Positions 5,549 to 42,903 of a stretch of 64,000 nucleotides of DNA are shown piece by piece. Within the stretch, counting starts at the first letter, position 1. Each line of letters opens with the position of its first letter. The stretch is taken from positions 1,178,001 through 1,242,000 of the forward strand of contig NZ_CP041165.1 of the NCBI RefSeq assembly GCF_014905095.1. The letters run 5' to 3'. The notes below the pieces were generated by a model, which was given only the letters and a program-made list of their open reading frames with translations, was not told the DNA's origin and did no database searches. The DNA comes from Sulfurimonas marina. Lineage in GTDB: Bacteria; Campylobacterota; Campylobacteria; Campylobacterales; Sulfurimonadaceae. A program made the translations under genes and the position numbers.

Positions 5549-6282
5549 AACATCTCCTTTGGATTTTGTAATATAGTATTTAATGTGTCTAAAAATTTTG
5601 CACCGATTCTACCATCGGTTGCACGGTGGTCCCCTGCAAGTGTAGCCTGCATCACTTTTCTCACACAAAGTGCATCACCTTCGGCCCAAGGAGCATCTTT
5701 TATAATCCCAAAGCCTATTACTGCAACTTGCGGTGGATAGATAACGCCAAACACGCTGTCAACTCCTAAGTCACCGAGATTTGTGATCGTAATAGTTTGT
5801 GCCATCAACTCACTTGAACGCAATTTACTTGCACGAGTCCTTGTTATCAAATCACCTAAAGACTCCATAGTATCGTTTAGATTTTTAATATCTGCATGTA
5901 AAAGTGCAGGTGTTATCAAACCGCCCTTTCTTAGAGCTATTGCAATTCCAGGATGTATCGCTTCACTGATATGTAGCTCATCCTCATGCCAAAAACCGTT
6001 TAACTCAGGTACCTTTTTTAAGGCTACAACAGCTGCTCGTATAAGCATTGCAGCAGGCAAAATTCTATTTTGTATATCTCTTTGTTTATTAAGCTCTTCG
6101 AGGTACTCTAAAGCAGGCGTCATATTGATTGTTGTTGAGAGATAATAGTGTGGTATCTCGGCATTTGACTTGCTCATGGCAGCTGCAATCGCCTGACGCA
6201 TACCATCTTTAGTCTCTTTAGCTTTAGTCTCTTTAGCAACTGCTGTTTCCTGCTCTTTTGGTTTTTCTTCATCAACAGCCAC
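5545..6282 (-). CDS. 2-oxoacid dehydrogenase E2 acyltransferase, catalytic domain (C-terminal part of a frameshifted gene)
   Basis: This 245-residue frame holds the whole acetyltransferase domain, with the catalytic motif [11 protein letters not shown] (H219, D223) near the C-terminus. The nominal start is a GTG with no good ribosome binding site, because the frame is the continuation of the lipoyl-domain gene just upstream (6285-6824). Between them the coding sense passes through a third frame that reads [16 protein letters not shown], so two small indels separate the halves. In an intact relative these would be one E2 of about 425 residues. It is followed by the ACP gene with a 4-nt overlap. 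Confidence 0.85.
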
Positions 6283-6284
6283 TT

Positions 6285-6824
6285 TTATCTCTTGCGGGAG
6301 TTAAAGCTTCCAACTGAGCAAGTTGTATAACACCGTTTTTTCGGAGTTATGCTAGAGAGATCTATACCTAACTCTTCAGCTTTTTTTCTAGCTGCAGGTG
6401 ATACTTTAACATCGCTACTTTGCATCTTTAGAGGTGCTTCTGCTTTTATATTCGGCTTTTGCTCTTCTTCAGGCTCTATCTCTTTTTGCTCTTTCATCTC
6501 TTCTTCAGGCTCTATCTCTTTTTGCTCTTTCATCTCTTCTTTTGGTTCAGGTTTAGGCTCTTCTACTTTTACTTCTACACTCTCATTTGCATCTGAACTT
6601 ATAATTGCCAAAGGGGTACCCACTTTACACTCGGTCTCTTCCTCTACCAAAAGCTTCTCAACAATACCCTCTTCAAAAACCTCAATCTCTATAACACCTT
6701 TAGAGGTCTCAACTTCAGCGATCACATCACCTTTGCTAACTTTGTCACCCTCTTTTACATGCCACTCCATTAAAACAGCTGATTCCATATCGGCACCGAG
6801 ACTCGGCATTACAAATTCACTCAT
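6285..6824 (-). CDS. 2-oxoacid dehydrogenase E2, lipoyl domain and start of E1/E3-binding domain (N-terminal part of a frameshifted gene)
   Basis: Residues 1-75 form a biotinyl/lipoyl domain with K42 in VETSKGVIE as the lipoylation site. A Glu/Lys/Pro-rich flexible linker contains a 12-residue repeat ([12 protein letters not shown], period 36 bp at 6462-6540). A peripheral-subunit-binding domain begins with [15 protein letters not shown] and then breaks off. After TPKK the frame turns into Cys/Arg-rich nonsense and stops; deleting one A from the A6 run restores a sensible PSBD. The lipoyl Lys is the substrate for the neighbouring LipM-like enzyme and LipA. The start overlaps the end of the E1 beta gene by 4 nt. 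Confidence 0.85.
6462..6540 (-). repeat. 36-bp tandem repeat in the E2 linker
   Basis: Two full copies plus a 7-nt partial copy of a 36-bp unit encode the acidic/basic linker between the lipoyl and subunit-binding domains. The repeat keeps frame, so copy-number change would only lengthen or shorten the swinging arm. Confidence 0.85.
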
Positions 6825-30278: not shown

Positions 30279-30620
30279 TTATTGCATCTCTAAACTCATA
30301 AGATACATATCTTCGCCGTCTATCACCTCTACATTTGTAGATTCGCACTCAGGGCAGCAATAATGGATTTTTTCCAGAGTGTTTTCTTCACCACATGAAT
30401 TACAGCGGATCACAACAGGCTGTATCTGTATGATAAATTCAGCCTCTTCACAGATGGTTTTCTCTTTAAAACTATTAAAGGCGACTTCAAACAGATGGAT
30501 TTCAATACCGCTCATCACCCCTATTTTTGTAACGATTTTTGTGACCTTTGAAGCTTGATTCTCTTTTGCAAGATCTTCAACTTGTTCCAACAAAGCCTGT
30601 ACTACGCTATATTCATGCAC
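30279..30620 (-). CDS. hypA: Hydrogenase nickel insertion protein HypA
   Basis: A 113-residue metallochaperone. The N-terminal Met-His-Glu supplies the nickel site, and two CxxC pairs (CNSC and CPEC region, after HYC) form the zinc site. It works with HypB to load Ni into the hydrogenase large subunit. It is the last gene of the hypB-C-D-E-A operon. Confidence 0.95.
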   Translation of the reverse strand: MHEYSVVQALLEQVEDLAKENQASKVTKIVTKIGVMSGIEIHLFEVAFNSFKEKTICEEAEFIIQIQPVVIRCNSCGEENTLEKIHYCCPECESTNVEVIDGEDMYLMSLEMQ

Positions 30621-30641
30621 AACATGTTCCCTTGAAGCTTT

Positions 30642-31640
30642 TTAACATATTCTAGGTAAGAGTTCACCTGTGGGCATCTCAAGAAATCTTTTTGTGCCGT
30701 GTCCGCTTTTAAGTATCACTTTAGCGGGATATTCCTGTGTCACCTCTGCTATCTCAACAGAGTTTGCAGAGTTCTCAAACCTCTGAAGAACATTGATCGC
30801 TTTAGCTGCATCGGCTTTTGGTATTGCTAAGATGAAAGTCCCCTCGTTTGCCAGATTCAAAGCCTCAAAACCGAGCATTTCACAAAGACCGTACACCTCT
30901 TGCGATACAGGGATCTTCTCCTCTTGCACCTCTATACAGATATTTGACTGTTTCGCCCACTCGTTTAGCACGGCACTCACACCTCCGCGCGTTGCATCAC
31001 GCATGGCAGTAATTTGCACACCCTCTTTGATAAGGGCCTGCACTTGAATACTCAAAGATGCACAATCGCTTTGCAGGTTGCTTGAAAGCTCCATCCCTTC
31101 ACGTGCCGTAAAGATTGTCGCCCCGTGACATCCTATATCTCGTGAGAGTAAAATAACATCATCTTCGGAGATTTTATTAGCACTTAGTCCTTTTTGCTCG
31201 ATCTCACCTATTCCCGTCGTGTTTATAAAGATCTTATCGACACTCCCTTTGGGAACCACCTTTGTATCACCGCTTACAATTACGGCATTGTTTATTGCCA
31301 ACTCTTTTTTCATAGAGTCTACAACCTTCTCAAGTTCCTCTAGAGAAAAACCCTCCTCTATGATCACCGAACAGGTAAGGTATTTCGGTTTTGCACCCAT
31401 CATTGCCAGATCGTTACAAGTTCCGCAAATTGCCAGTTTGCCGATATCTCCACCGGGGAAAAAGATCGGAGAAACCGTAAAACTGTCCGTTGAAAATGCC
31501 AGCTCACCGTTATGGATCACCGCTGCATCTTCACTTTTTTCCAAAATATCGTTTGCAAAAGCTTTGTAGAAAACTTTGGAAATCAATTCGTTATTCTCTT
31601 CACCGCCATTTCCCATAGCTAGAGTTATTTGCTTATTCAT
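30642..31640 (-). CDS. hypE: Hydrogenase maturation protein HypE
   Basis: A 332-residue PurM-like ATP-dependent dehydratase that turns the carbamoyl group into the cyanide ligand of the active-site iron. It starts at the operon overlap with hypD, contains AMGNGGEENNELI and SGDTKVVPKG, and ends in the essential PRIC, whose terminal Cys carries the thiocarbamate. Confidence 0.96.
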   Translation of the reverse strand: MNKQITLAMGNGGEENNELISKVFYKAFANDILEKSEDAAVIHNGELAFSTDSFTVSPIFFPGGDIGKLAICGTCNDLAMMGAKPKYLTCSVIIEEGFSLEELEKVVDSMKKELAINNAVIVSGDTKVVPKGSVDKIFINTTGIGEIEQKGLSANKISEDDVILLSRDIGCHGATIFTAREGMELSSNLQSDCASLSIQVQALIKEGVQITAMRDATRGGVSAVLNEWAKQSNICIEVQEEKIPVSQEVYGLCEMLGFEALNLANEGTFILAIPKADAAKAINVLQRFENSANSVEIAEVTQEYPAKVILKSGHGTKRFLEMPTGELLPRIC

Positions 31641-32761
31641 AAAAGCTTCCCGTATTTATAATATGCCGCACAAGCACCCTCACTGCTTACCATACAACTT
31701 CCCATCGGAGTAGACGGTTTACATGCAGTGCCAAAGATAGAACACTGTGGAGGAGTTGCCTTGCCTTTAAGAATATCTCCGCAAATACAGAGTTTATGGT
31801 CCTCGATCGGCTCGCTTTTAAGCAGCTCTTCGTAAAGCACTTCCGCATTATATTTATTATATTCATCCCGAAGTTTCAATCCGCTGTTTGGAATATCTCC
31901 CAAACCTCTAAATCTGAACTTTTGCGCTTTTTCAAAGTATTTCTCATTTAATGCCTGAGCTTTTAGATTGCCTTCATGATTCACAGCCCGTTTGTACTGC
32001 ACTTCAAGTTCAGACCGCTTTTCAACAAACTGTTTGACAACCATTGCAATTGATTCCATCACGTCAACAGGCTCAAACCCCGCAACAACTACGGGTTTTT
32101 TATACTCATGGGGAAACTTCTTATAGATCTGACTCCCGCTTATAACGCTCACATGACTCGGCCCTAAAAATGCGTCAATACTACACTCTTCATCGGATAA
32201 AAGCAGCTCCATAGCTTCTGGAACAGTTACATGGTTTATATGAAACAAGATATTTTCAATCCCCTGCTTTATAACTACATCTAAAAGTGCCGCAGTCATC
32301 GGTGTAGTTGTTTCAAAACCAATCGCAAAGAAGATTACTTTTTTATCTTGATTTTCTTTGGCAATTTTCAAGGTATCAAGCGGCGAGTATACAAAACGCA
32401 CATCAGCCCCGCGTGCACGTGCATCTTGCAAACTCCCTTTAGAACCCGGGACTTTTATCATATCCCCTAAAGTGACAAGGATTACATCCTCCTGCATTGC
32501 CAATATATAGGCATGATCTATCCGCTCTTTGGGCATTATGCAAACCGGACATCCAGGCCCATGGAGAAAGTTGATATTTTCAGGCAGCAGCTGTTGTAAT
32601 CCATACTTCATGATCGTATGTGTATGACCGCCACACACCTCCATAATATTTATGAGATTTGGCAGTTTTTTTGCCTCTTCTTCGATCAGCTTTGCATACC
32701 CTTGGATAACCTCAGGATCTCTAAAACCCGTATAGAGGTCTTTGAGCTGTAACTCACCCAT
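31637..32761 (-). CDS. hypD: Hydrogenase maturation protein HypD
   Basis: A 374-residue iron-sulfur scaffold on which Fe(CN)2CO is assembled with HypC. C43 in EVCGGHTHT and C71/C74 in GPGCPVCIMP are conserved, and the C-terminal [4Fe-4S] cysteines lie in HKLCICGDILKG, PPQCSIFGTAC and GSCMVSSEGAC. It overlaps hypE by 4 nt and touches hypC. Confidence 0.97.
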   Translation of the reverse strand: MGELQLKDLYTGFRDPEVIQGYAKLIEEEAKKLPNLINIMEVCGGHTHTIMKYGLQQLLPENINFLHGPGCPVCIMPKERIDHAYILAMQEDVILVTLGDMIKVPGSKGSLQDARARGADVRFVYSPLDTLKIAKENQDKKVIFFAIGFETTTPMTAALLDVVIKQGIENILFHINHVTVPEAMELLLSDEECSIDAFLGPSHVSVISGSQIYKKFPHEYKKPVVVAGFEPVDVMESIAMVVKQFVEKRSELEVQYKRAVNHEGNLKAQALNEKYFEKAQKFRFRGLGDIPNSGLKLRDEYNKYNAEVLYEELLKSEPIEDHKLCICGDILKGKATPPQCSIFGTACKPSTPMGSCMVSSEGACAAYYKYGKLL

Positions 32762-33051
32762 TATCTGCCTCTATTAGGACAATTATCATCCTCTTCGACC
32801 AAGTTTTGCCGCTCTTGTTCATCCATCTTCTCAACTAGTTCGCTGTACACTTTTAAAGACTCCAGAGCATCCGCTTCATCTAGCTTGTTCATAATAAAAC
32901 CGATGTGTAAAAGTACATAATCCCCTACTTTTACATCATCCTCTTCCATCAGATCCAAACCCGCTTCACGAGTAATACCCATAGTATCTACCGTTACTAC
33001 GTTTCTCTCTTTATCTATCTTTACAACTTTGCTTGGAATTGAAAGGCACAT
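32761..33051 (-). CDS. hypC: Hydrogenase maturation chaperone HypC
   Basis: A 96-residue HypC/HupF protein whose N-terminal MCLSIPSKV bears the essential Cys2. It shuttles iron from HypD to the large subunit. The tail, with VEEDDNCPNRG, is longer than usual. It overlaps hypD by 1 nt. Confidence 0.95.
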   Translation of the reverse strand: MCLSIPSKVVKIDKERNVVTVDTMGITREAGLDLMEEDDVKVGDYVLLHIGFIMNKLDEADALESLKVYSELVEKMDEQERQNLVEEDDNCPNRGR

Positions 33052-33052
33052 C

Positions 33053-33850
33053 CTAAGCTCTCATTTTACGTTTAAATTCGATCCACTCTATCACTCTTTG
33101 AACAGATGAAGGGTCTTTTACGCTTACCTCTAAAATGTCAACACCCGGTTTGATTTTTCGTGCCTCTTTTTTTTCATGTTCGAGGTCATAATCAAAGTGC
33201 TCTATTAGGTCCATCTTAGTTATTAAGATCAGATCAGCCTGCCGAAACATTACGGGGTATTTCTCTATCTTGTCGCTGCCCTCGGGAACTGAAACCAGAA
33301 CAATGTTTAAATGGGTTCCGACATCATACGAAGCGGGACACACAAGATTGCCGACATTCTCTACAAAACACAGATCAATCTCATCCAGCGGCATCGCATG
33401 CAATCCCTTATGTACCATGAAAGCATCCAAATGGCATGCTGAGCCTGTTTGTATCTGATAGGCAGGGATCCCTTTTGCTTTCATTCGATCGGCATCACGT
33501 GAAGTCTCCAAATCCCCTTCAATCACACCAAATTTAAACTCTGCCAAATCCGCCATAGCTTCAAGCAGTGCAGTTTTTCCGCTTCCCGGTGAGCTCATAA
33601 GGTTAATGCCGAGAACTTTGTGGTTATCAAAGTGGCTGCGGTTATGCGCTGCTTCATGGTTGTTTTTATCTAAAATCTTTGTAATGACACTTATAGTTTT
33701 CGCATCGTTTAACTGCGGGTTATGGTGCAGTGTTTCATGCGCAGCCTGATGCTCGTGTGAGTGATCATGAGTATGTTCATGATGATGATGATGCTCGTGC
33801 CCATCTCCTAAAGTTGTTCCTGTTATACTACATCCACAATCTGCACACAT
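33053..33850 (-). CDS. hypB: Hydrogenase nickel GTPase HypB
   Basis: A GTPase of 265 residues. The N-terminal MCADCGC (high-affinity Ni site of the C-x2-C-x-C type) is followed by a His-rich stretch (about residues 18-44) that probably stores nickel. The P-loop is SSPGSGKTALLEAM (86-99), and NLVCPASYDVG and ITKMDLIEH follow. It leads the hypB-C-D-E-A part of the operon and has a NiCoT-like permease gene 22 nt upstream. Confidence 0.96.
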   Translation of the reverse strand: MCADCGCSITGTTLGDGHEHHHHHEHTHDHSHEHQAAHETLHHNPQLNDAKTISVITKILDKNNHEAAHNRSHFDNHKVLGINLMSSPGSGKTALLEAMADLAEFKFGVIEGDLETSRDADRMKAKGIPAYQIQTGSACHLDAFMVHKGLHAMPLDEIDLCFVENVGNLVCPASYDVGTHLNIVLVSVPEGSDKIEKYPVMFRQADLILITKMDLIEHFDYDLEHEKKEARKIKPGVDILEVSVKDPSSVQRVIEWIEFKRKMRA

Positions 33851-33872: not shown

Positions 33873-34514
33873 TTATGCCAAAAGCATATTTGTTCCAACT
33901 GCCACAGAAACTATTCCGGCCGTTGCAAACACTCTTCTTACATTTCTTTGGTTTGTCAAAAACTCTTTGTTGATATATAAAATAACTACCCCGAAGCTTA
34001 AAAAAACAACACTTACACCAAATACAAAAGCAAGTACCATAGAAAAATCTACCACCTGATTTTCCAAAGCGCCCAGAGTGACAAGCATTCCGCGAACTCC
34101 GCCTATTCCCATAAGTGCGCCCATAGTCCATGCCGATGTCGATGCATAGGAACTGTTATGGGAGTGCTCTTTTCCAAAATAGATGTGCATATGTTCTTTG
34201 TCATCATGGGTGTGTTTGTTGAGATGTATTTTGTTTGATACAACCATATACAAAAGATATACACCCATAGCGATAATTACGCTTGAAGCTATTATATCTC
34301 CGTACATAGTAACATTTTCGGGTAAATTATAGCTCTGTAAAATTTTTGCAAATAGAAAAAGTGTGATCCCGTGACCAAAAGCAAACATGATCGTAATCAT
34401 CATCGTTTTTTTGATGGATTTTCCTATGGAAAAATCGGCTATAGCAGTTAAGTGATCCGCTCCAAATGCATGTAAGATTCCATACCAGAGCATGAGAAAA
34501 TAAGCCGTTTCCAT
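33873..34514 (-). CDS. NiCoT-like nickel permease
   Basis: A membrane protein of 213 residues with about six helices. The first helix carries HAFGADHLTAIADFSIGKS, an H-x4-D-H metal-transport signature, and a cytoplasmic or periplasmic loop around 95-120 is His-rich (HTHDDKEHMH, KEHSH). It directly precedes hypB, so it very likely brings in nickel for hydrogenase maturation. Direction of transport cannot be proven from sequence; a UreH/RcnA-like efflux role is the alternative. Confidence 0.82.
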   Translation of the reverse strand: METAYFLMLWYGILHAFGADHLTAIADFSIGKSIKKTMMITIMFAFGHGITLFLFAKILQSYNLPENVTMYGDIIASSVIIAMGVYLLYMVVSNKIHLNKHTHDDKEHMHIYFGKEHSHNSSYASTSAWTMGALMGIGGVRGMLVTLGALENQVVDFSMVLAFVFGVSVVFLSFGVVILYINKEFLTNQRNVRRVFATAGIVSVAVGTNMLLA

Positions 34515-34654: not shown

Positions 34655-35209
34655 GTGAAAGAGTTAGTAGTTTTAGGTGTCGGAAATATCTTACAGCATG
34701 ATGACGCTATAGCGGTATATGCCTCACAGTATATAAGCGACAACTACACTTTTTCACCCGACATAGATATTATAAACGGCGGTGTTGAGGGTATAAACCT
34801 TCTCAACTTTTTTATGGAATACAAATACATCCTCATCCTTGATGCTATAGAGATAGAAGATGAAGCGGGAGCTATTTACCATATCCCCTCAGAGGAGCTT
34901 ACAGGTTTTGGAGTGAATTCCGGCAGTGCGCACGACATCGGAGTACTTCAATGCTTTGAACTTTTGGAACTGATGGGAAAAAAGGCACCAAAGTCTAGTG
35001 TTCTCGGGATCGTACCACATAAAATAGATACACATATAGGTCTAAGCGACACACTCTACTCAAAGTTTGACACCTATATCCAAACGCTTGTTGCTGTTTT
35101 AAAAGATCTTAATATAGAGGCTGTAAAGAACGATGCCAACCTCTCCCTTGATGATGTGATCGAGAAGTTTAATAACCCTAGAGCTAGCACCCCAAATTTG
35201 CCTCTGTAA
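34655..35209 (+). CDS. hupD: Hydrogenase maturation endopeptidase (HyaD/HupD family)
   Basis: A 184-residue nickel-dependent protease that trims the large-subunit C-terminus. Of the HybD nickel ligands E16, D62 and H93, the equivalents here are Asp (LQHDDAIAV), Asp (ILILDAIE) and His (GSAHDIGV): all present, one Glu changed to Asp. The start is a GTG with AAAGGA upstream. Its 3' end carries one copy of a direct repeat that recurs after the unknown gene next door. The matching large subunit ends with a cleavable extension. Confidence 0.88.
   Translation: MKELVVLGVGNILQHDDAIAVYASQYISDNYTFSPDIDIINGGVEGINLLNFFMEYKYILILDAIEIEDEAGAIYHIPSEELTGFGVNSGSAHDIGVLQCFELLELMGKKAPKSSVLGIVPHKIDTHIGLSDTLYSKFDTYIQTLVAVLKDLNIEAVKNDANLSLDDVIEKFNNPRASTPNLPL
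35162..35186. repeat. Direct repeat, left copy
   Basis: GAGAAGTTTAATAACCCTAG followed by AGCTA, inside the 3' end of the maturation protease gene. The right copy at 35985-36011 differs by two substitutions and a 2-nt insertion. The pair encloses the unknown gene at 35280-35921. Confidence 0.5.
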
Positions 35210-35279: not shown

Positions 35280-35921
35280 ATGTCCCAAGCTGAAGCAGTA
35301 GAAATATATCTTAATAACATGAGAGATGTCAAAAAAAGAATTGAATATGCCGAAAACCAGCTGAGTGTATTTAACACAACACATGACTATCTTCTATTGG
35401 AAAATGCATTGTTACACACTAGGAAAGCTCTTGAATGTATCGCATATGCTTCTATCGCACCTAATAAAAATGCCTATTCAAAGTTCCGTTCTGAAGCTAA
35501 AATTCCAGCAGATTTTAGAAAAGATTATCATGGAGGAAAAATCCTCAAACAATTAGAACGTGTCAATAAAGATTTTTATCCACTTCCATTGGTTAAACCA
35601 AAACTAGTTGCTGAAAGGCAGTGGCACTTTGATAGGCTTAGTTCTGGTTATTTAACCAAGAAACAGTATAGTAATCTTTATGATAGGCTCGGAAAATTCC
35701 TGCATTCAGATAACCCTTGGGATAATGACAAGGGATATCTGAATTTAGCTAATGATATGCCGGAAAACTTTCAAAGAATAAAGTCTTTATTACAGATACA
35801 TGCTACTTTCGTTCAGGACAATAAATCTCGATACGCTTTTGTTGTAGACATGGGTTCTAAAGAAAAAGATGTGTCTGTGATAACAGCGATAGCAGGTGGG
35901 CCATTTAATGTGGACATCTAG
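35280..35921 (+). CDS. Unknown protein inserted in the hydrogenase island
   Basis: A 213-residue protein I do not recognise. The first two-thirds is helical and polar (paired helices around 10-70 include ALLHTRKALECIAYA), and the C-terminus is beta-like (YAFVVDMGSKEKDVSVITAI). There is no signal peptide, membrane helix or metal motif. The helical bundle is vaguely HEPN-like, but no R-x4-6-H motif is evident, so I make no such claim. It has its own promoter, faces against the hydrogenase genes, and is bracketed by near-identical direct repeats, which suggests it is a later insertion. Confidence 0.7.
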   Translation: MSQAEAVEIYLNNMRDVKKRIEYAENQLSVFNTTHDYLLLENALLHTRKALECIAYASIAPNKNAYSKFRSEAKIPADFRKDYHGGKILKQLERVNKDFYPLPLVKPKLVAERQWHFDRLSSGYLTKKQYSNLYDRLGKFLHSDNPWDNDKGYLNLANDMPENFQRIKSLLQIHATFVQDNKSRYAFVVDMGSKEKDVSVITAIAGGPFNVDI

Positions 35922-35984: not shown

Positions 35985-36011
35985 GAAAAGTTTACTAACC
36001 CTAGAAAGCTA
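35985..36011. repeat. Direct repeat, right copy
   Basis: GAAAAGTTTACTAACCCTAG followed by AAAGCTA, overlapping the last codons of the hydrogenase large subunit on the other strand. It matches 35162-35186 at 23 of 25 bases apart from a 2-nt insertion. Confidence 0.5.
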
Positions 36012-37683
36012 CATTAGTAGTTTTATACTTCGCAAGTTCTTTCCCTTTTGCATCTATAACATGTACGGCACATGCCAGACATGGATCAAAAGAGTGGATT
36101 ACACGTAAAACCTCTAACGGCTTTTCTCTGTCTTCTATCTTTAAACCGATTAACCCTTCTTCGTATGCACCTCTGAGCCCGTCAAAGTTTTTCGGTGTAG
36201 CATTCCAGGTTGTCGGTGCTATTACCGAATAGTTTTGTATCTTTGCATCTTTTATGTTGATAAAGTGAGAAAGCATCCCTCTTGGCACTTCCAAAAATGC
36301 CCTTCCCTGCGTTTGTGTTTCCAAGGTCTCAAAACTGTACTTTGTCCAAGTATCGGTATCGTAGTATTTTATATTTTGCAGTAACTCTGAAGCAATCTTG
36401 AAAATATACTCACATACATAAATGCTCTCAATTGCGCGGGCTGCATTTCTCCCTACAGATGTACAAAGATCGATGAGTTCCAAATCGGTCTCTTTTAAGA
36501 ACTCATCTACAAATGAGATAATCAAAGGATTCTTTTTAGAGTAGCTTATGAGCAGTCGTGCAAGCGGCCCCGTCTCCATCGGTTGCTTATCGTAGCGCGG
36601 TGCTTTGATCCACGAGTACTTGTCATCATTTTTCGCCGTTTTTAAAGAGCCGTCACTGTTTAGATCGGTATATTTTACTTCCTGTTCTGGAGTACTGCCG
36701 TCATACCAAGCTCGATCTACCTCTTCTGTGATCTTACTCGGATCAAAATCTTGTATATTTTCAAAATCGTGCTTGTAGATTACACCGTCGCTAAAAAGTT
36801 TTCTCTCCCCTTCAAAGCTGTAACCGCCCGATGACATGTAGTTCCCGTTCGCTCTTCCGATGCCCGCTTTTATCTCATCACGATACACTATCGCCAAGAG
36901 TTTTGCATCTGGAAGGTATGCCCGCTGGATAAACTCCTGTGCCTCTTTCATAATAAAAAGATAGTCATTCACCCTTTGCGGATTTAACATATCTGCTACA
37001 CTTGTCACCCCGCCGACTACCAAAGTTTGAGGATGGGGAGTTTTAGCGCCGAAAATCGCTACCGCTTTGGAGATCTTTGTTTGAAATTTGAGCGCTTCAA
37101 GATAATGAGAAATAAGAATTAAGTTCTGCTCTGCCGAGAGCTTGTATGCACCATGTCCCCAGTAGCCGTTGGCAAACGGTCCGAGCTTTCCACTTTTTAC
37201 AAAAGTGTCCAGTTTTTTCAGTGTCTCTTCATAGTGAGCATGGGAGTTTCTAAAAGGGTTTTCATGGTACTTGTGTGCCTCTTTGGATGTCATCTTCGGA
37301 TCAGCTTTTAGGGCACTTGTTACATCCACATAGTCTAAAGAGTGCAGATGGTAAAAATGAACCACATGATCCTGAATAAACAGTGCCATAGCCATAAGAT
37401 CACGAATGATCTCGGCATTTTTAGGAATCTTAAGAGAGTATGCATCTTCAACACACGTTATAGCCCCGCGAAAATGGGAGTTTGTACACACACCGCAAAT
37501 ACGCCCCGCCATCAATCCCGCATCTCTTGGATCGCGACCTTGTAGTATGGTCTCTATTCCTCGAAACAGCTGTCCGCTAGCCCAGGCATCTTGAACGACA
37601 TTATTTTCATCCACCTCAACTTCTACACGCAGATGTCCCTCTATTCTCGTGATTGGATCGATAACAATTTTTTTAAGACTCAT
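36001..37683 (-). CDS. hupL: [NiFe] hydrogenase large subunit
   Basis: A catalytic subunit of 560 residues. The N-terminal NiFe ligands are C63 and C66 in GRICGVCTNSH, and the C-terminal ligands are C535 and C538 in DPCLACAVH. Nineteen residues follow H541, the extension that a maturation protease removes after nickel insertion. There is no export partner, and the small subunit lacks a Tat signal, so the enzyme is cytoplasmic. The start overlaps the 3' end of the fused small-subunit gene by 11 nt, ensuring coupled synthesis. The features fit a group 2-type hydrogenase; exact subgroup needs a phylogeny. Confidence 0.95.
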   Translation of the reverse strand: MSLKKIVIDPITRIEGHLRVEVEVDENNVVQDAWASGQLFRGIETILQGRDPRDAGLMAGRICGVCTNSHFRGAITCVEDAYSLKIPKNAEIIRDLMAMALFIQDHVVHFYHLHSLDYVDVTSALKADPKMTSKEAHKYHENPFRNSHAHYEETLKKLDTFVKSGKLGPFANGYWGHGAYKLSAEQNLILISHYLEALKFQTKISKAVAIFGAKTPHPQTLVVGGVTSVADMLNPQRVNDYLFIMKEAQEFIQRAYLPDAKLLAIVYRDEIKAGIGRANGNYMSSGGYSFEGERKLFSDGVIYKHDFENIQDFDPSKITEEVDRAWYDGSTPEQEVKYTDLNSDGSLKTAKNDDKYSWIKAPRYDKQPMETGPLARLLISYSKKNPLIISFVDEFLKETDLELIDLCTSVGRNAARAIESIYVCEYIFKIASELLQNIKYYDTDTWTKYSFETLETQTQGRAFLEVPRGMLSHFINIKDAKIQNYSVIAPTTWNATPKNFDGLRGAYEEGLIGLKIEDREKPLEVLRVIHSFDPCLACAVHVIDAKGKELAKYKTTNVAF

Positions 37684-40099
37684 CTTCTACTTCCTCTTCA
37701 TACTTTCTCTCATTGGCAAACTTGTCAAAAAAACCGGCCTCTACACACCCCATACAACCATGACCCGCTTGAACAGGCCAACTTGTACCACCGTTAAACT
37801 TCATAGTCGGGCAGTTTGCATTTGCATAAGGACCTTTACATCCCATCTCAAAAAGGCAGTACCCTTTTTTGGCACCCTCATCGCCCCACTCTTTTACAAA
37901 CTCACCAAGTTCATAGTGTCCGCGTCTCTCACAGTTGTCATGGATTCTCCCCTCATAAGCCCACAGAGGTCTGTTGAACGAATCCAGCGGCGGCAACTCT
38001 TCAAACATCAGGTACGAAAGAAGCGTGCCCACAATATTTGTCGGGTTTGTAGGACAACCCGGTATGTTTATAACATCGTCACGCCCAAGTGCTTCAGCCA
38101 CTCCGACAGCACCTGTTGGATTTGGAGCAGCAGCTACCACTCCGCCGTCAAAAGCACAACTCCCAACCGCCATAATGAGTGCCGCATCCTTCGCCGTATT
38201 TTGTAAAAGCTCAAGTCCCGTTGTACCGTTTGGACCTATTCTTAGATACTTTCCATCCATTGCAAGCGGAACAGCCCCCTCTACTATAAGGACATATTCC
38301 CCTTTTTGATTTTTAACGATATCTTCTAAAACTGTTTCACTCTGATCACCACTTGGACTCATTAACAGCTCATGATAATCCAGCGATACATAATCAAATA
38401 TCAGATCCTCTATTGCCGGGTTTTCCGATTTTATAAAAGCTTCCGAGTTCCCGCTACAGTCAGCTAGCTCCAGCCAAATAATGGGTACGCGGTTGAGTGT
38501 TTTGATCCCTCTTTCTACAACCTCTTCAAAATTGGGGTGCAGTTGCATATTTGCAGTTACCATAGAGATCCAACTGTTTACTTGATGTTTCTCGATCTCT
38601 ATCGACTCTAAAGCATTCTCCAAATTCTCTGCAGATAAGTTGTTTCTCGGATGTAAAGTGTTAAATTTATCAAGACGTTTTTGTACAGCTTGTATCTCTT
38701 TTTCTCTTTGTAGCTCTTCGGGTGTTTTTCTCACCATATTTGGATCAATTAGATCTTGCGAATCTTTTATGATATCTTGTACCATCACCTTACATTTTCC
38801 ACATACACGACCCGCCTGGGAAAACGGTGCCAACTCAGAAAATGAAGCGATTCCTGTCTCTTTTACAATATCTACAAGGTCTTGCTGATACACATGCTCA
38901 CAACTACATACAAGTCTTCCGCGCTCACCTACAAGTCTGTTCTCATAAAGGTAGTTAATATCTACTTTTTGTCCGCTATCCATAAGCGTCTCTAGATACC
39001 CTACATCAACATTTGAGTTTATCCCTATAAAGCGTGTCAGTTTATCCCCGTTGAAAAAGTACTCATCTATTCGGTTGTCTTTTTTCGATGTTATTAAAAC
39101 CTTTTCATACTCACTCGTAAATGTGGGAGAACGTACCTCTATAAGATCGAAGTTTCCAACTTTGAGCATATCTACATCGATCTCACGCTTGAACTCTTTT
39201 TTCTCCAGGTTTAATATGTGTGAAATGGCACAATCAGCCTGAAGTGTACACGCTTTTACATGCCCCGCTATAAAGTTAAACTCTTCCACTTCGGCACACT
39301 CACCTATGGCATAGATATTTTCATCTTCGGTTTGCATATAGTTGTTTGTAAGAAGCCCTTTGTTGGACTTGAGGACATCACGGAATAGTTCTATATTTGG
39401 TTTTATTCCCACTCCAAAAACAACAAAAGGATTTTCAATTTTCATCTTCTTGGTTTGGATCGAAGTTATCTCAGAGTTTTCTACTGTTTTATCTACAATC
39501 TCATCCTCATACGAGATAGAGACTTTTCCATTGTCGGTGTAAGAGTTTTCTATAGTTTTAATAGCATCGATCGAGAGGTCTTTACTGTAAAGAGCGTCAG
39601 AGCGCACAAGAAGTGTAATATGCTTGACCGCATCCATATCACTCAATGTTTCAAGCAGTTCGAGTGCTATCGGTCCGGCACCTACGATCACAACCTCTCT
39701 GCCCTGGACACCCTCATGGATCTTTTTACAATCACGGGCACTTCTAAAAACGGTAGCATTTGAGATATTTTGTATATCAAAGAGTGTAATAGGCAAAGAG
39801 CCTGTAGCGATAATGAGCTTGTCGTAACCGTACATTGCATCCTCGGTTAGTACACGCTTATGCTCTCTGTCAATAGATGTAATTTTTTGACGCAGTTCCA
39901 GTTTTATCTTAGGGTGGAGCGGGATGGCAATATCATCAACCTCATCAGAGTCGTCTACCAAACGGCATAAGTGGATTCTGTCATACGAGGGATACTCTTC
40001 ATCACTTAAAAGAACTATATCTAAAGAGATATCTTCTTGTATCAGTTTATTTGCAATATAAGCACCTGCAATCCCCGCACCGATAATTACAACTCTCAT
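37673..40099 (-). CDS. Fusion of NirB-like FAD/NAD(P) oxidoreductase, BFD [2Fe-2S] domain and [NiFe] hydrogenase small subunit
   Basis: One open frame of 808 residues. Residues 1-380 form a pyridine-nucleotide-disulfide-type flavoprotein, with GAGIAG at 7-12 (FAD), GAGPIA at 140-145 and the FAD-closing IYAIGECAE near 262. R166 at the end of the second NAD-domain strand may favour NADP. Residues 390-445 are a BFD-like [2Fe-2S] domain (C398, C400, C433, C436). After a helical linker (445-535) comes a hydrogenase small subunit: proximal cluster C548, N551, C648 and C682; distal H720, C723, C748 and C754; medial C763, C782 and C785. There is no Tat signal or C-terminal anchor. The layout suggests electron flow from H2 through the clusters to flavin and NAD(P). 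Confidence 0.9.
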   Translation of the reverse strand: MRVVIIGAGIAGAYIANKLIQEDISLDIVLLSDEEYPSYDRIHLCRLVDDSDEVDDIAIPLHPKIKLELRQKITSIDREHKRVLTEDAMYGYDKLIIATGSLPITLFDIQNISNATVFRSARDCKKIHEGVQGREVVIVGAGPIALELLETLSDMDAVKHITLLVRSDALYSKDLSIDAIKTIENSYTDNGKVSISYEDEIVDKTVENSEITSIQTKKMKIENPFVVFGVGIKPNIELFRDVLKSNKGLLTNNYMQTEDENIYAIGECAEVEEFNFIAGHVKACTLQADCAISHILNLEKKEFKREIDVDMLKVGNFDLIEVRSPTFTSEYEKVLITSKKDNRIDEYFFNGDKLTRFIGINSNVDVGYLETLMDSGQKVDINYLYENRLVGERGRLVCSCEHVYQQDLVDIVKETGIASFSELAPFSQAGRVCGKCKVMVQDIIKDSQDLIDPNMVRKTPEELQREKEIQAVQKRLDKFNTLHPRNNLSAENLENALESIEIEKHQVNSWISMVTANMQLHPNFEEVVERGIKTLNRVPIIWLELADCSGNSEAFIKSENPAIEDLIFDYVSLDYHELLMSPSGDQSETVLEDIVKNQKGEYVLIVEGAVPLAMDGKYLRIGPNGTTGLELLQNTAKDAALIMAVGSCAFDGGVVAAAPNPTGAVGVAEALGRDDVINIPGCPTNPTNIVGTLLSYLMFEELPPLDSFNRPLWAYEGRIHDNCERRGHYELGEFVKEWGDEGAKKGYCLFEMGCKGPYANANCPTMKFNGGTSWPVQAGHGCMGCVEAGFFDKFANERKYEEEVEDES

Positions 40100-40136: not shown

Positions 40137-40670
40137 TCAAGAATTAAAGTAACTCGCTACTATCTCATCCAATTCTATAACATTTTCTCTTTGCTTGGCT
40201 TCAATTCCCAACAATTTCATTTGCCCAAGCACACTTTGAATATACTTTTTCCACTCTCTTCTTAAAACGTCACTCACTCCAACCTCTACACTCATAATAT
40301 CATCAGGAACTATACTTATAACTGTTGTTTTAGCTACAGTTCCGGATAAAGAGCATACTTGCAACATCTCTGCTATTTCAACTTCACTTGCCGTCTTTTT
40401 GACTATGTCACCCTCTAAGAACTGTTCCGTGTTCTTTATGATTATCTCACCTGCATCTCTGTTTTGCTCCGAAGAGGTATTAACGATAAGCACCTCATCA
40501 TACTCTTGCAGCAGCTCTAAGAGTTTAAGTCCTAAAGTCCCGCCCTCTATTATCTCAAAGGGGATAGAAAAGTCGTAGTTCTCTTTTATATAGCGCACGG
40601 CATACACGCCTATACCCTCATCTTTAAAAAGAACGTTTCCCGAACCCACCAGTACTATGTTTTTTCCCAT
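40137..40670 (-). CDS. Hydrogenase maturation protease paralogue with degenerate nickel site
   Basis: A 177-residue HyaD/HybD-family protein. I start it at the ATG at 40670, one base past the hypF stop, because MGKNIVLVGSGNVLFKDEGIG is the family N-terminus; a longer frame adds hypF antisense-like residues. The Glu ligand is kept (KDEGIG), but the equivalent of HybD D62 is Asn (LIVNTSS) and that of H93 is Ser (TASEVEIAEML). It may be a non-proteolytic chaperone, or it may use other residues. It lies between hypF and the small-subunit fusion. Confidence 0.85.
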   Translation of the reverse strand: MGKNIVLVGSGNVLFKDEGIGVYAVRYIKENYDFSIPFEIIEGGTLGLKLLELLQEYDEVLIVNTSSEQNRDAGEIIIKNTEQFLEGDIVKKTASEVEIAEMLQVCSLSGTVAKTTVISIVPDDIMSVEVGVSDVLRREWKKYIQSVLGQMKLLGIEAKQRENVIELDEIVASYFNS

Positions 40671-40671
40671 C

Positions 40672-42903
40672 TTATCTCTCTTTTGCCATATGGAGTGCAT
40701 AGTAGGCTTGACCAAGAGATATACCACCGTCATTGATCGCAGTTTTACTCTGGAAATAGTAGCGTATATTGTTCTTCTCGAAAGCTGCAATAGTTTTTTC
40801 AAGCAAGGTTTTGTTTTGAAATACACCGCCGCTCAAAATCACAGGCAACTCTGGATGTTTAAGTGCGATCTCAACTATAATGTTTTTGAGTGTATTTATA
40901 AACTTTGAGGCGATCAGAGCCTTCTCTTTTTCATTTAATATCTCCACAACCATCTCTTTAAACTCTATTATCTCATTGTTGATTCTATAGGGGTAACTTG
41001 CATCACTTTTATGCTCTTGTGCACACTTCTCAACGATCAGCCCGCTTTCCCCCTCATAACTTAGGTCATTTAGGTTAGCGCCAAAAACATAGATAGCATC
41101 AAACAATCTGCCGATCGAACTGCTCTTTGGAGAGTTTAGCTGTTTTGTATGCATGAGGTGGTAATTTTCTATCTCCTCTTTTGAAAAGGAATTAACTACC
41201 TCATGCTCCATCTTCAAGATCTCCTCTTTAGTAAAAGATTCAAACAACAATGAAAGTGCTACACGTTTGGGCTCTTTTACAGCCTTTTCCCCGCCTAGCA
41301 GTGATAACTGTTGAAGATGATAGAGGCGTTTATACTCACTTGGGCTCACACGTAAAACTTCACCGCCCCACAAAGTAGCGTCATCCCCGTAACCAGTACC
41401 GTCAAAACAAAATGCTAAAGCCTCATCTTCCAAGTTATACTCTGCCATACACGCCAGTGCATGTGCATAATGGTGTTGCACCTCCAAAAGCTCCACATCT
41501 TTATGCTCAGCAATGTAGCTTTTTGCCCATTTACTCGTTTCATAGTGTGGATGCTTGTCGCATACAATGATGTCGGGTTCAAAGTTGTAAAGTCGTTTAA
41601 AAGTATCTAGTGTACGTAAAAAGTACTCAAAAGCTTCGAGCGAATTTAGATCGCCTATGTGGGGAGAGAGGATCATATGGTTTTCAAACGCCAAAGTGAT
41701 GGTACTTTTTTGATGCCCACCGAGAGCGAGTATCTTTTTAGCAGAGGTGTGCTTTTGATGAAAACTCTGCGGTGTAAATCCGCGGGCATCTCGTAAAACC
41801 ATCTGCTTCTCTTCAATACTGCAAACCACACTGTCATCACAGGCGTTTACTATCTCTCTGTTGTGTGAAAGTGCCTTATAAAGAAACGGAAGCTTTTTGT
41901 ACAACTCCTCTTCATCGGTAATGATAGGCTCATCACCCAAGTTTGCACTAGTTGCCACTATAGGATGCTCAAGCTTTTCTAGGATCAGCTCATGCAGAGG
42001 GGTATAAGGTAAAAACACCCCTACTCTGTCAATATACGGCGCTATGAGAGAGGATAGAGAGCTATTCTCTTTTTTTCTCACTATAACTATCGGGCGCTCT
42101 TTTGAGAGGATCAGCTCCTCATCTTTTTCGCTCAAGTAAGCTACATTTTTAATTGCTTCAATATCTTTAAACATCACCGCAAAAGGTTTCGTCGGACGGT
42201 TTTTATGTTTTCTTAGCTCCTGCACCGCTTGATCGTTTGTAGCATCACACACTATATGGAACCCGCCTAACCCTTTGAGCGCCAAGATTTTGCCATCGTT
42301 AATATAACTGACAAACTCCTCTATAGAAAAGTTTAGTGCAGGCCCGCAATGAAAACAAGATATCGGCTGTGCATGAAAACGGCGATCTGTCGGCTCGCCA
42401 TACTCTTTTTGACACTCTAAGCACATCTCAAACTCTTGCATTGAGGTGTTCTTTCTATCATAGGGCAGCTCTTTAACTATGCTGTATCTCGGTCCGCAGT
42501 TTGTGCAGTTGATAAAGGGGTATTTGTAACGTCTGTTTGTAGGGTCTTGCATCTCATCCCTGCAATCTTGGCACATTGAGATATCTGGCGAGAGCATTGT
42601 AGTGACATCGGTATTATTTGAGCGGACAATTGAAAACTCTTGCGTGTTTTGGAGTTCAAGTGTTTGTAGCTCGATCCTGTCTATGCGAGCCAATGGCGGG
42701 TGTTTCTCTTTTAGCTCTTCTAAAAAACTCTCTATAGAGCTATTTAGCCCTTCAACCTCTATAACTACACCCTCGCCGCTGTTTAATACATATCCTGACA
42801 ATGAGTGCTTAAGTGAGAGCTGATATACAAACGGGCGAAATCCGACACCTTGTACCACCCCTGCTATATCCAGTCTTAATCGTTTTTTAGAGATATTTTT
42901 CAT
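40672..42903 (-). CDS. hypF: Carbamoyltransferase HypF
   Basis: A protein of 743 residues that makes the carbamoyl donor for CN ligands. Domains in order are acylphosphatase (1-90, with VQGVGFRPFV), two C4 zinc fingers (CQDCRDE, CTNCGPRYS; CLECQKE, CFHCGP), a YrdC-like domain (GLGGFHIVCDA), and a Kae1-like carbamoyltransferase domain (VQHHYAHALACMAEY and FDGTGYGDDATLWGGE). Its ATG is only 7 nt downstream of a TATAAT, in a 37-nt gap shared with the divergent MOSC gene. Confidence 0.96.
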   Translation of the reverse strand: MKNISKKRLRLDIAGVVQGVGFRPFVYQLSLKHSLSGYVLNSGEGVVIEVEGLNSSIESFLEELKEKHPPLARIDRIELQTLELQNTQEFSIVRSNNTDVTTMLSPDISMCQDCRDEMQDPTNRRYKYPFINCTNCGPRYSIVKELPYDRKNTSMQEFEMCLECQKEYGEPTDRRFHAQPISCFHCGPALNFSIEEFVSYINDGKILALKGLGGFHIVCDATNDQAVQELRKHKNRPTKPFAVMFKDIEAIKNVAYLSEKDEELILSKERPIVIVRKKENSSLSSLIAPYIDRVGVFLPYTPLHELILEKLEHPIVATSANLGDEPIITDEEELYKKLPFLYKALSHNREIVNACDDSVVCSIEEKQMVLRDARGFTPQSFHQKHTSAKKILALGGHQKSTITLAFENHMILSPHIGDLNSLEAFEYFLRTLDTFKRLYNFEPDIIVCDKHPHYETSKWAKSYIAEHKDVELLEVQHHYAHALACMAEYNLEDEALAFCFDGTGYGDDATLWGGEVLRVSPSEYKRLYHLQQLSLLGGEKAVKEPKRVALSLLFESFTKEEILKMEHEVVNSFSKEEIENYHLMHTKQLNSPKSSSIGRLFDAIYVFGANLNDLSYEGESGLIVEKCAQEHKSDASYPYRINNEIIEFKEMVVEILNEKEKALIASKFINTLKNIIVEIALKHPELPVILSGGVFQNKTLLEKTIAAFEKNNIRYYFQSKTAINDGGISLGQAYYALHMAKER

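Follow-up and report, generated by a model that had tools for sequence, protein, structure and literature searches.

A flavoprotein–[NiFe]-hydrogenase fusion in Sulfurimonas marina with a linker most likely descended from an export leader

The fused small subunit and its described relatives

A hydrogenase small subunit fused to a flavoprotein, HynS, is known from Thiomicrospira (Hydrogenovibrio) crunogena XCL-2 and five relatives, namely T. microaerophilum, Sulfuricurvum kujiense, Sulfurovum sp. AR, Sulfurimonas autotrophica and Arcobacter nitrofigilis (Hansen and Perner 2016, citing Scott 2006, PMC4744846; PMC6501319). The XCL-2 protein has about 813 amino acids and a pyridine nucleotide-disulfide oxidoreductase domain, carries no twin-arginine translocation (Tat) motif, and is encoded in a cluster without cytochrome b, beside a large subunit with group 1b motifs. 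Here, we analyzed a stretch of 64,000 nucleotides from the sulfur-oxidizing bacterium Sulfurimonas marina (the window; contig NZ_CP041165.1, positions 1,178,001 to 1,242,000), in which a minus-strand gene (37673..40099, stop codon included) encodes an 808-residue protein that shares the flavoprotein domain, the missing Tat motif, the lack of cytochrome b in the cluster and the large-subunit motifs. The original prediction, made from the letters of the window alone, knew of no common description of such a fusion. Because PMC4744846 already describes it from Scott et al., the fusion is not new, and the window protein is an added member of the XCL-2 type, 53–55% identical to six gammaproteobacterial copies. 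Our comparison adds the most likely origin of the linker in an export leader and an asparagine at the proximal iron-sulfur cluster (Asn551) that is shared with exported relatives. The examined text of the two papers mentions neither, and no report of a leader-derived linker in the fused HynS or of an Asn common to fused and exported enzymes was met in the open-licence PMC literature, mostly judged at listing level.

The 808 codons translate without an internal stop, and the start is preceded by a Shine-Dalgarno-like AGGTGA. Pfam matches above cut-off cover residues 1-269 (Pyr_redox_2, the flavin- and pyridine-nucleotide-binding FAD/NAD(P) domain, also recovered by fold match; 39293..40099), 396-445 (Fer2_BFD, the BFD [2Fe-2S] domain with Cys 398, 400, 433 and 436; 38765..38914), 548-695 (Oxidored_q6) and 715-795 (NiFe_hyd_SSU_C), all on the minus strand. 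The NCBIfam model hydA (TIGR00391) matches residues 491-797 with 361 bits, above its cut-off, and the alignment places the [NiFe]-hydrogenase small subunit at residues 537-797 (37709..38491, minus strand). The predicted single frame, joining a flavoprotein like the front half of NirB to a complete small subunit, was thus confirmed. The likeness to NirB lies in the domain order, FAD/NAD(P) followed by BFD [2Fe-2S], with TIGR02374 matching residues 3-446 at 152 bits, below its cut-off of 578. However, the sirohaem/[4Fe-4S] half of NirB has no Pfam match in the fused protein, and by fold the front half most closely resembles putidaredoxin reductase and the BphA4 ferredoxin reductases (TMt about 0.8), which are separate polypeptides without a hydrogenase. 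NirB is one relative among several, coenzyme A-disulfide reductases (CoADR) and persulfide reductases also being among the sequence and fold relatives. The fold is also that of the AorC-type subunit of the Aromatoleum aldehyde oxidoreductase (8c0z_E), an FAD subunit that transfers electrons between Fe-S clusters and NAD(P)H, which is a separate chain and has no hydrogenase.

The fusion is conserved co-linearly, as the original prediction would have it. A genome-contig locus search, which finds close relatives only and could miss rarer fusions in other phyla, gave 37 related loci, of which 29 align from residue 1 (one from residue 14) to residue 769 or beyond. The remaining eight are three unfused small subunits in records not named Campylobacterota, four cuts at contig ends and one locus with a transposase. 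Unless stated otherwise, the residue statistics below refer to the distinct proteins of the fetched loci, 46 fused ones of full length and 25 unfused small subunits, with fragments or broken frames left out (L027, L029, L031, L035, L038, L041 and L061). The frame is continuous in these 46 proteins and in 18 further distinct Sulfurimonas proteins, including residues 440-535, where a stop and start in relatives had been named as the sign of an artefact. An assembly or frameshift artefact is ruled out, because the same frame occurs in many genomes. The frame breaks that were seen all lie outside residues 440-535 (L027 at about residue 169, L029 between about 81 and 149, L025 after about 773). In L027 (4493-8550, a Sulfurimonas assembly), a DDE transposase frame (5811-6785) is inserted in the broken gene. 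Met455, suggested earlier as an internal start, was rejected; it has no Shine-Dalgarno-like site and is Met in 25 of the 46 relatives.

Glycines 7, 9, 140 and 142, the four BFD cysteines and the small-subunit cysteines 548, 648, 682, 723, 748, 754 and 763 are conserved in 46/46 fused proteins, while Cys782 and Cys785 are present in 44, the other two proteins being truncated. All 18 further Sulfurimonas proteins keep the BFD cysteines and Asn551 and none has RRxF in the linker, and the six gammaproteobacterial copies (one already among the 46) agree on all three points. The ratio of nonsynonymous to synonymous substitution rates (dN/dS) is 0.045, both between genomes G000 and G282 and between G000 and G143. 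Two further cysteines to which we assign no ligand role are also conserved, Cys45 (codon 39965-39967, minus strand) in 45/46 and Cys284 in 46/46 proteins.

Linker, proximal cluster and descent

The linker (residues 466-536; 38492..38704, minus strand) resembles the N-terminal extension and Tat leader of HydA. Fused residues 447-536 were compared with the leaders of exported small subunits of Campylobacterota, the small-subunit domain being excluded. A profile of 21 unfused leaders matches all 46 fused linkers with 21.7-39.3 bits, against 6.0 bits for the best of 966 shuffled or reversed linkers, and profile-profile comparison aligns residues 466-536 with a probability of 97.6 (E 3e-12). The reverse search, with a fused-linker profile against the 21 unfused leaders, is weaker (9.3-32.1 bits). 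The twin-arginine columns read RR in 24/25 unfused small subunits and Lys504-His505 in the window protein. RRxF occurs in none of the 46 fused linkers (two of them have RR elsewhere in the linker), and Trp510, present in 46/46, aligns with the Trp of the leader motif FMKW. The hydrophobic stretch has a median value of 1.39 in unfused leaders (0.85 to 1.75) versus 0.37 in fused linkers (-0.05 to 0.74), with disjoint ranges. Taken together, the profile matches, the lost arginines and the reduced hydrophobicity indicate that the fusion most likely arose when a flavoprotein of the ferredoxin-reductase/NirB type was placed ahead of a complete HydA precursor; the Tat leader of this precursor would then have lost its twin arginines and decayed into a linker. 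The small subunit itself is of the exported group-1 type, and its predicted cytoplasmic location goes back to this decay alone. One stand-alone small subunit, L081:2137-3294, lies beside an Asn-type one, lacks the twin arginines and has Glu at the proximal position; it is perhaps another loss of export.

Residue 551 (codon 38447..38449, minus strand) aligns with the second Cys of the HoxK proximal motif and is Asn in 46/46 fused proteins. The small subunit is thus complete in its other cluster ligands, but not at this proximal position. The same position in the 25 unfused small subunits is Cys in 10, Asn in 14 and Glu in one, and all 14 Asn-type proteins carry a Tat motif. A search with a DNA pattern of the Asn motif, which does not distinguish fused from unfused genes, matched at least 56 of 298 Campylobacterota genomes, a lower bound because the pattern misses the window's own AGC serine. 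The proximal cluster of group 1h is held by three Cys and one Asp (PMC8498564), so a missing proximal Cys is not disabling in itself. The remark in PMC4744846 that Fe-S sites seem unconserved can probably be narrowed to position 551, the one cluster-ligand position that differs, and the change there is common to exported relatives. Two marks of group 1b, a Tat signal on the small subunit and a four-Cys proximal cluster, are absent from the window protein. Stand-alone small subunits at L028:9660-10619 and L079:6093-7154, probably of group 2d, carry the proximal motif TCNGN, and Asn at this position thus also occurs outside group 1. Membership of the fusion in group 2d was rejected on 28-32% identity to two stand-alone small subunits, which we take for group 2d, and on their distant position in the tree. 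S. denitrificans was discarded as proof of activity in an Asn-type enzyme, since the HydA of the genome that we take to be this species turned out to be of the Cys type.

The closest unfused relatives are the Tat-exported Asn-type group-1 HydA proteins of Campylobacterota, 44-50% identical to the small-subunit domain of the window protein. Both have Asn at the second proximal position and a homologous leader or linker, whereas the exported proteins keep RRxF and have no flavoprotein. A phylogenetic tree calculated for 52 small subunits unites the 22 fused rows in a single clade (97/84) and the Asn-type rows, together with one Glu row, in a second (100/98). It gives no firm branching order for the fused, Asn-type and Cys-type groups, and the tool flagged a meeting of long branches. 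The six gammaproteobacterial copies form one clade, which falls inside the Campylobacterota copies with the root of this tree (support 93/48); their position would fit a transfer.

Proposed reaction and competing explanations

The large-subunit gene (560 amino acids; 36001..37683, minus strand; assigned from its reading frame, Pfam and motifs) begins within the fused gene, overlapping its end by 11 nucleotides. Its product fits group-1 NCBIfam models, carries RICGVC and DPCLAC, and has 19 residues beyond the final motif His. The longer motifs RICGVCTNSH and DPCLACAVH match the group 1b motifs quoted in PMC4744846, in a comparison of motifs only. Judged from sequence, the two proteins probably form a two-polypeptide cytoplasmic H2:NAD(P)+ oxidoreductase. 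We infer its activity, electron path, direction and coenzyme as follows: the NiFe site of the large subunit would split H2, and the small subunit would conduct the electrons along its proximal, medial and distal clusters. From there they would reach the BFD [2Fe-2S] cluster of the same polypeptide, then FAD, and finally NAD(P)+, the product being NADPH rather than NADH in the more likely case. This would be the reaction of the group 3 Hox-type NAD(P)-reducing hydrogenases, in which, by contrast, the diaphorase is separate and includes a Complex1_51K subunit. A profile search for Complex1_51K gave no match in the window genome (matches in 9/14 control genomes), and a separate diaphorase of the Hox type is therefore absent, in agreement with the original prediction. 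Among the examined cluster genes none encodes a cytochrome b subunit, the genome's one Ni_hydr_CYTB match lying about 510 kb away. A narrower version, in which a minimal two-gene H2:NADP+ oxidoreductase arose from an exported respiratory hydrogenase, with the Tat leader turned into an internal linker and the proximal cluster held by three Cys and perhaps Asn, is put forward tentatively, at a little under even chances.

The preference for NADP(H) comes from the residues that close the second Rossmann strand, which are Asp-Thr in putidaredoxin reductase. Residue 165 is non-acidic in 46/46 fused proteins and residue 166 (codon 39602..39604, minus strand) is Arg in 45/46, and the lack of an acidic residue together with Arg166 favors NADP(H) over NAD(H). 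An Arg at this place reportedly goes with NADP(H) in work on BphA4. Titles of BphA4 mutant structures are among the fold matches, and a search of the open-licence PMC literature for a BphA4-type Arg/NADP(H) link found nothing. The earlier suggestion that R166 hints at NADP(H) is thus supported, but three of the six gammaproteobacterial copies have Ile166.

Several further observations, beside Ile166, count against H2-dependent NAD(P) reduction. Asn551 removes a usual ligand of the proximal cluster. The AlphaFold2 model has a mean predicted local distance difference test score (pLDDT) of 69.9; most of the flavoprotein reaches about 90, but much of the small subunit stays under 50, so that the model yields no cluster distances for the proposed wire. 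In 44 of 56 fused locus rows (several of which are the same place), the next gene downstream encodes the large subunit; of the 12 others, eight have less than 1.5 kb of sequence left, and four (L014, L016, L025 and L033) have at least 2 kb. L014, L016 and L033 show no large-subunit gene in 2 to 5 kb downstream, and L025 has it 3 kb on. Genomes G177 (that of L047) and G060 have group-1 large subunits on another contig or about 9 kb away. S. autotrophica showed no soluble hydrogenase activity (PMC3035374), did not grow on H2 and gave extracts without uptake activity (PMC4584964), and its genome (G129) has one [NiFe] large subunit, beside the fusion. XCL-2 consumed no H2 and none of its cell fractions was active, and its authors consider that the enzyme may not be expressed or may have lost its function (PMC4744846). 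This cluster is also present in SP-41, but the activity of SP-41 is membrane-bound, which fits its second, Tat-type hydrogenase (PMC6501319). The cytoplasmic enzyme of S. denitrificans, Suden_1437, is reported apart (PMC4149538).

Failure to take up H2 in XCL-2 and S. autotrophica could also mean that the enzyme runs in reverse, as an NAD(P)H-driven, H2-evolving valve against over-reduction; the NAD(P) module on the same chain and the missing Tat motif would suit such a role. However, group-1 hydrogenases are known mostly as uptake enzymes, and electron flow from NAD(P)H to H2 is energetically uphill unless H2 is very low, so we regard a reversed valve as unlikely. The flavin end might instead feed another acceptor, such as polysulfide, persulfide, CoA-disulfide in a CoADR-type reaction, or ferredoxin, perhaps bifurcating with NAD(P). 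The CoADR and persulfide reductases among its relatives and Cys45 speak for this, but the Cys of the CoA-disulfide reductase 3cgb, which we take to be catalytic, aligns with Ile42 (Ile in 46/46) and not with Cys45, weakening CoA-disulfide reductase chemistry. The reductive tricarboxylic acid cycle of the genus does need low-potential electrons (PMC4584964, PMC5401914). No second electron exit was seen, however, and we consider another acceptor quite improbable.

An inactive or decaying hydrogenase was considered for XCL-2 on account of the lost Tat signal, cytochrome b and Fe-S sites (PMC4744846). The two carriers without detected activity, Asn551, and three damaged copies (one with a transposase, two with frame breaks) are in keeping with decay. 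Yet the low dN/dS, the ligands kept in 46/46 proteins except at position 551, the Asn in 14 of 25 unfused small subunits that all carry a Tat motif, and the maturation genes retained beside the fusion make decay very doubtful. The low or undetected activity in carriers would also be expected if the fusion sensed H2 or redox state instead of serving metabolism. However, the examined surrounding genes include no kinase or regulator as a partner, and the large-subunit motifs place the group at 1b, not at 2b or 2c (PMC4744846, PMC6501319), so that a sensor seems highly improbable. If active as an H2:NAD(P)+ oxidoreductase, the fusion would let autotrophs in vents and redoxclines make NAD(P)H from H2 by genetically very simple means, sparing them reverse electron transport, and it could serve as a compact scaffold when cofactors are to be recycled with H2. 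It also illustrates clearly how an export signal appears to have been reused as a linker.

Distribution and neighboring genes

The full-length fusion was found in 21/298 Campylobacterota genomes, in 35/120 Sulfurimonas genomes (rows from residue 1 to 769 or beyond) and in 6/62 genomes of the Thiomicrospira microaerophila family, counts that exclude contig-end fragments and come from overlapping genome collections. An even draw from the class of T. microaerophila gave it in 1/274 genomes, T. microaerophila itself. The sole [NiFe] large subunit found is the one beside the fusion in four of the 21 fusion genomes (G000, G282, G129 and G126). The window genome has a single [NiFe] large subunit, and in T. 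microaerophila no other [NiFe] large subunit than the one next to the fusion exceeds the family cut-off.

Maturation genes flank the two structural genes. On the minus strand, hypA, hypE, hypD, hypC and hypB occupy 30279..33850, with hypC between about 32761 and 33053; HypC was assigned by eye, and HypE from its AIRS domains and position. They are followed by a possible nickel transporter, NicO-like and below the Pfam family cut-off (33873..34514, minus strand), and by a HycI-type maturation protease (34655..35209, plus strand). A 213-residue frame between this protease and the large subunit (35280-35921, plus strand) matches neither Pfam nor NCBIfam models and lacks relatives among the compared loci. 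Upstream of the fused gene lie a second HycI-type protease (40137..40826, minus strand), whose family match begins near residue 57 and whose true start is probably inside this frame, and HypF (40672..42903, minus strand). Both proteases were assigned from Pfam, NCBIfam and locus comparison. Two distinct HycI-type proteases in the window thus stand against one [NiFe] large subunit in the genome. The second is 52-56% like proteases near hypF in L015 and L078, and the genome of L078 also has an Asn-type exported hydrogenase; the second protease may be the leftover of a lost hydrogenase.

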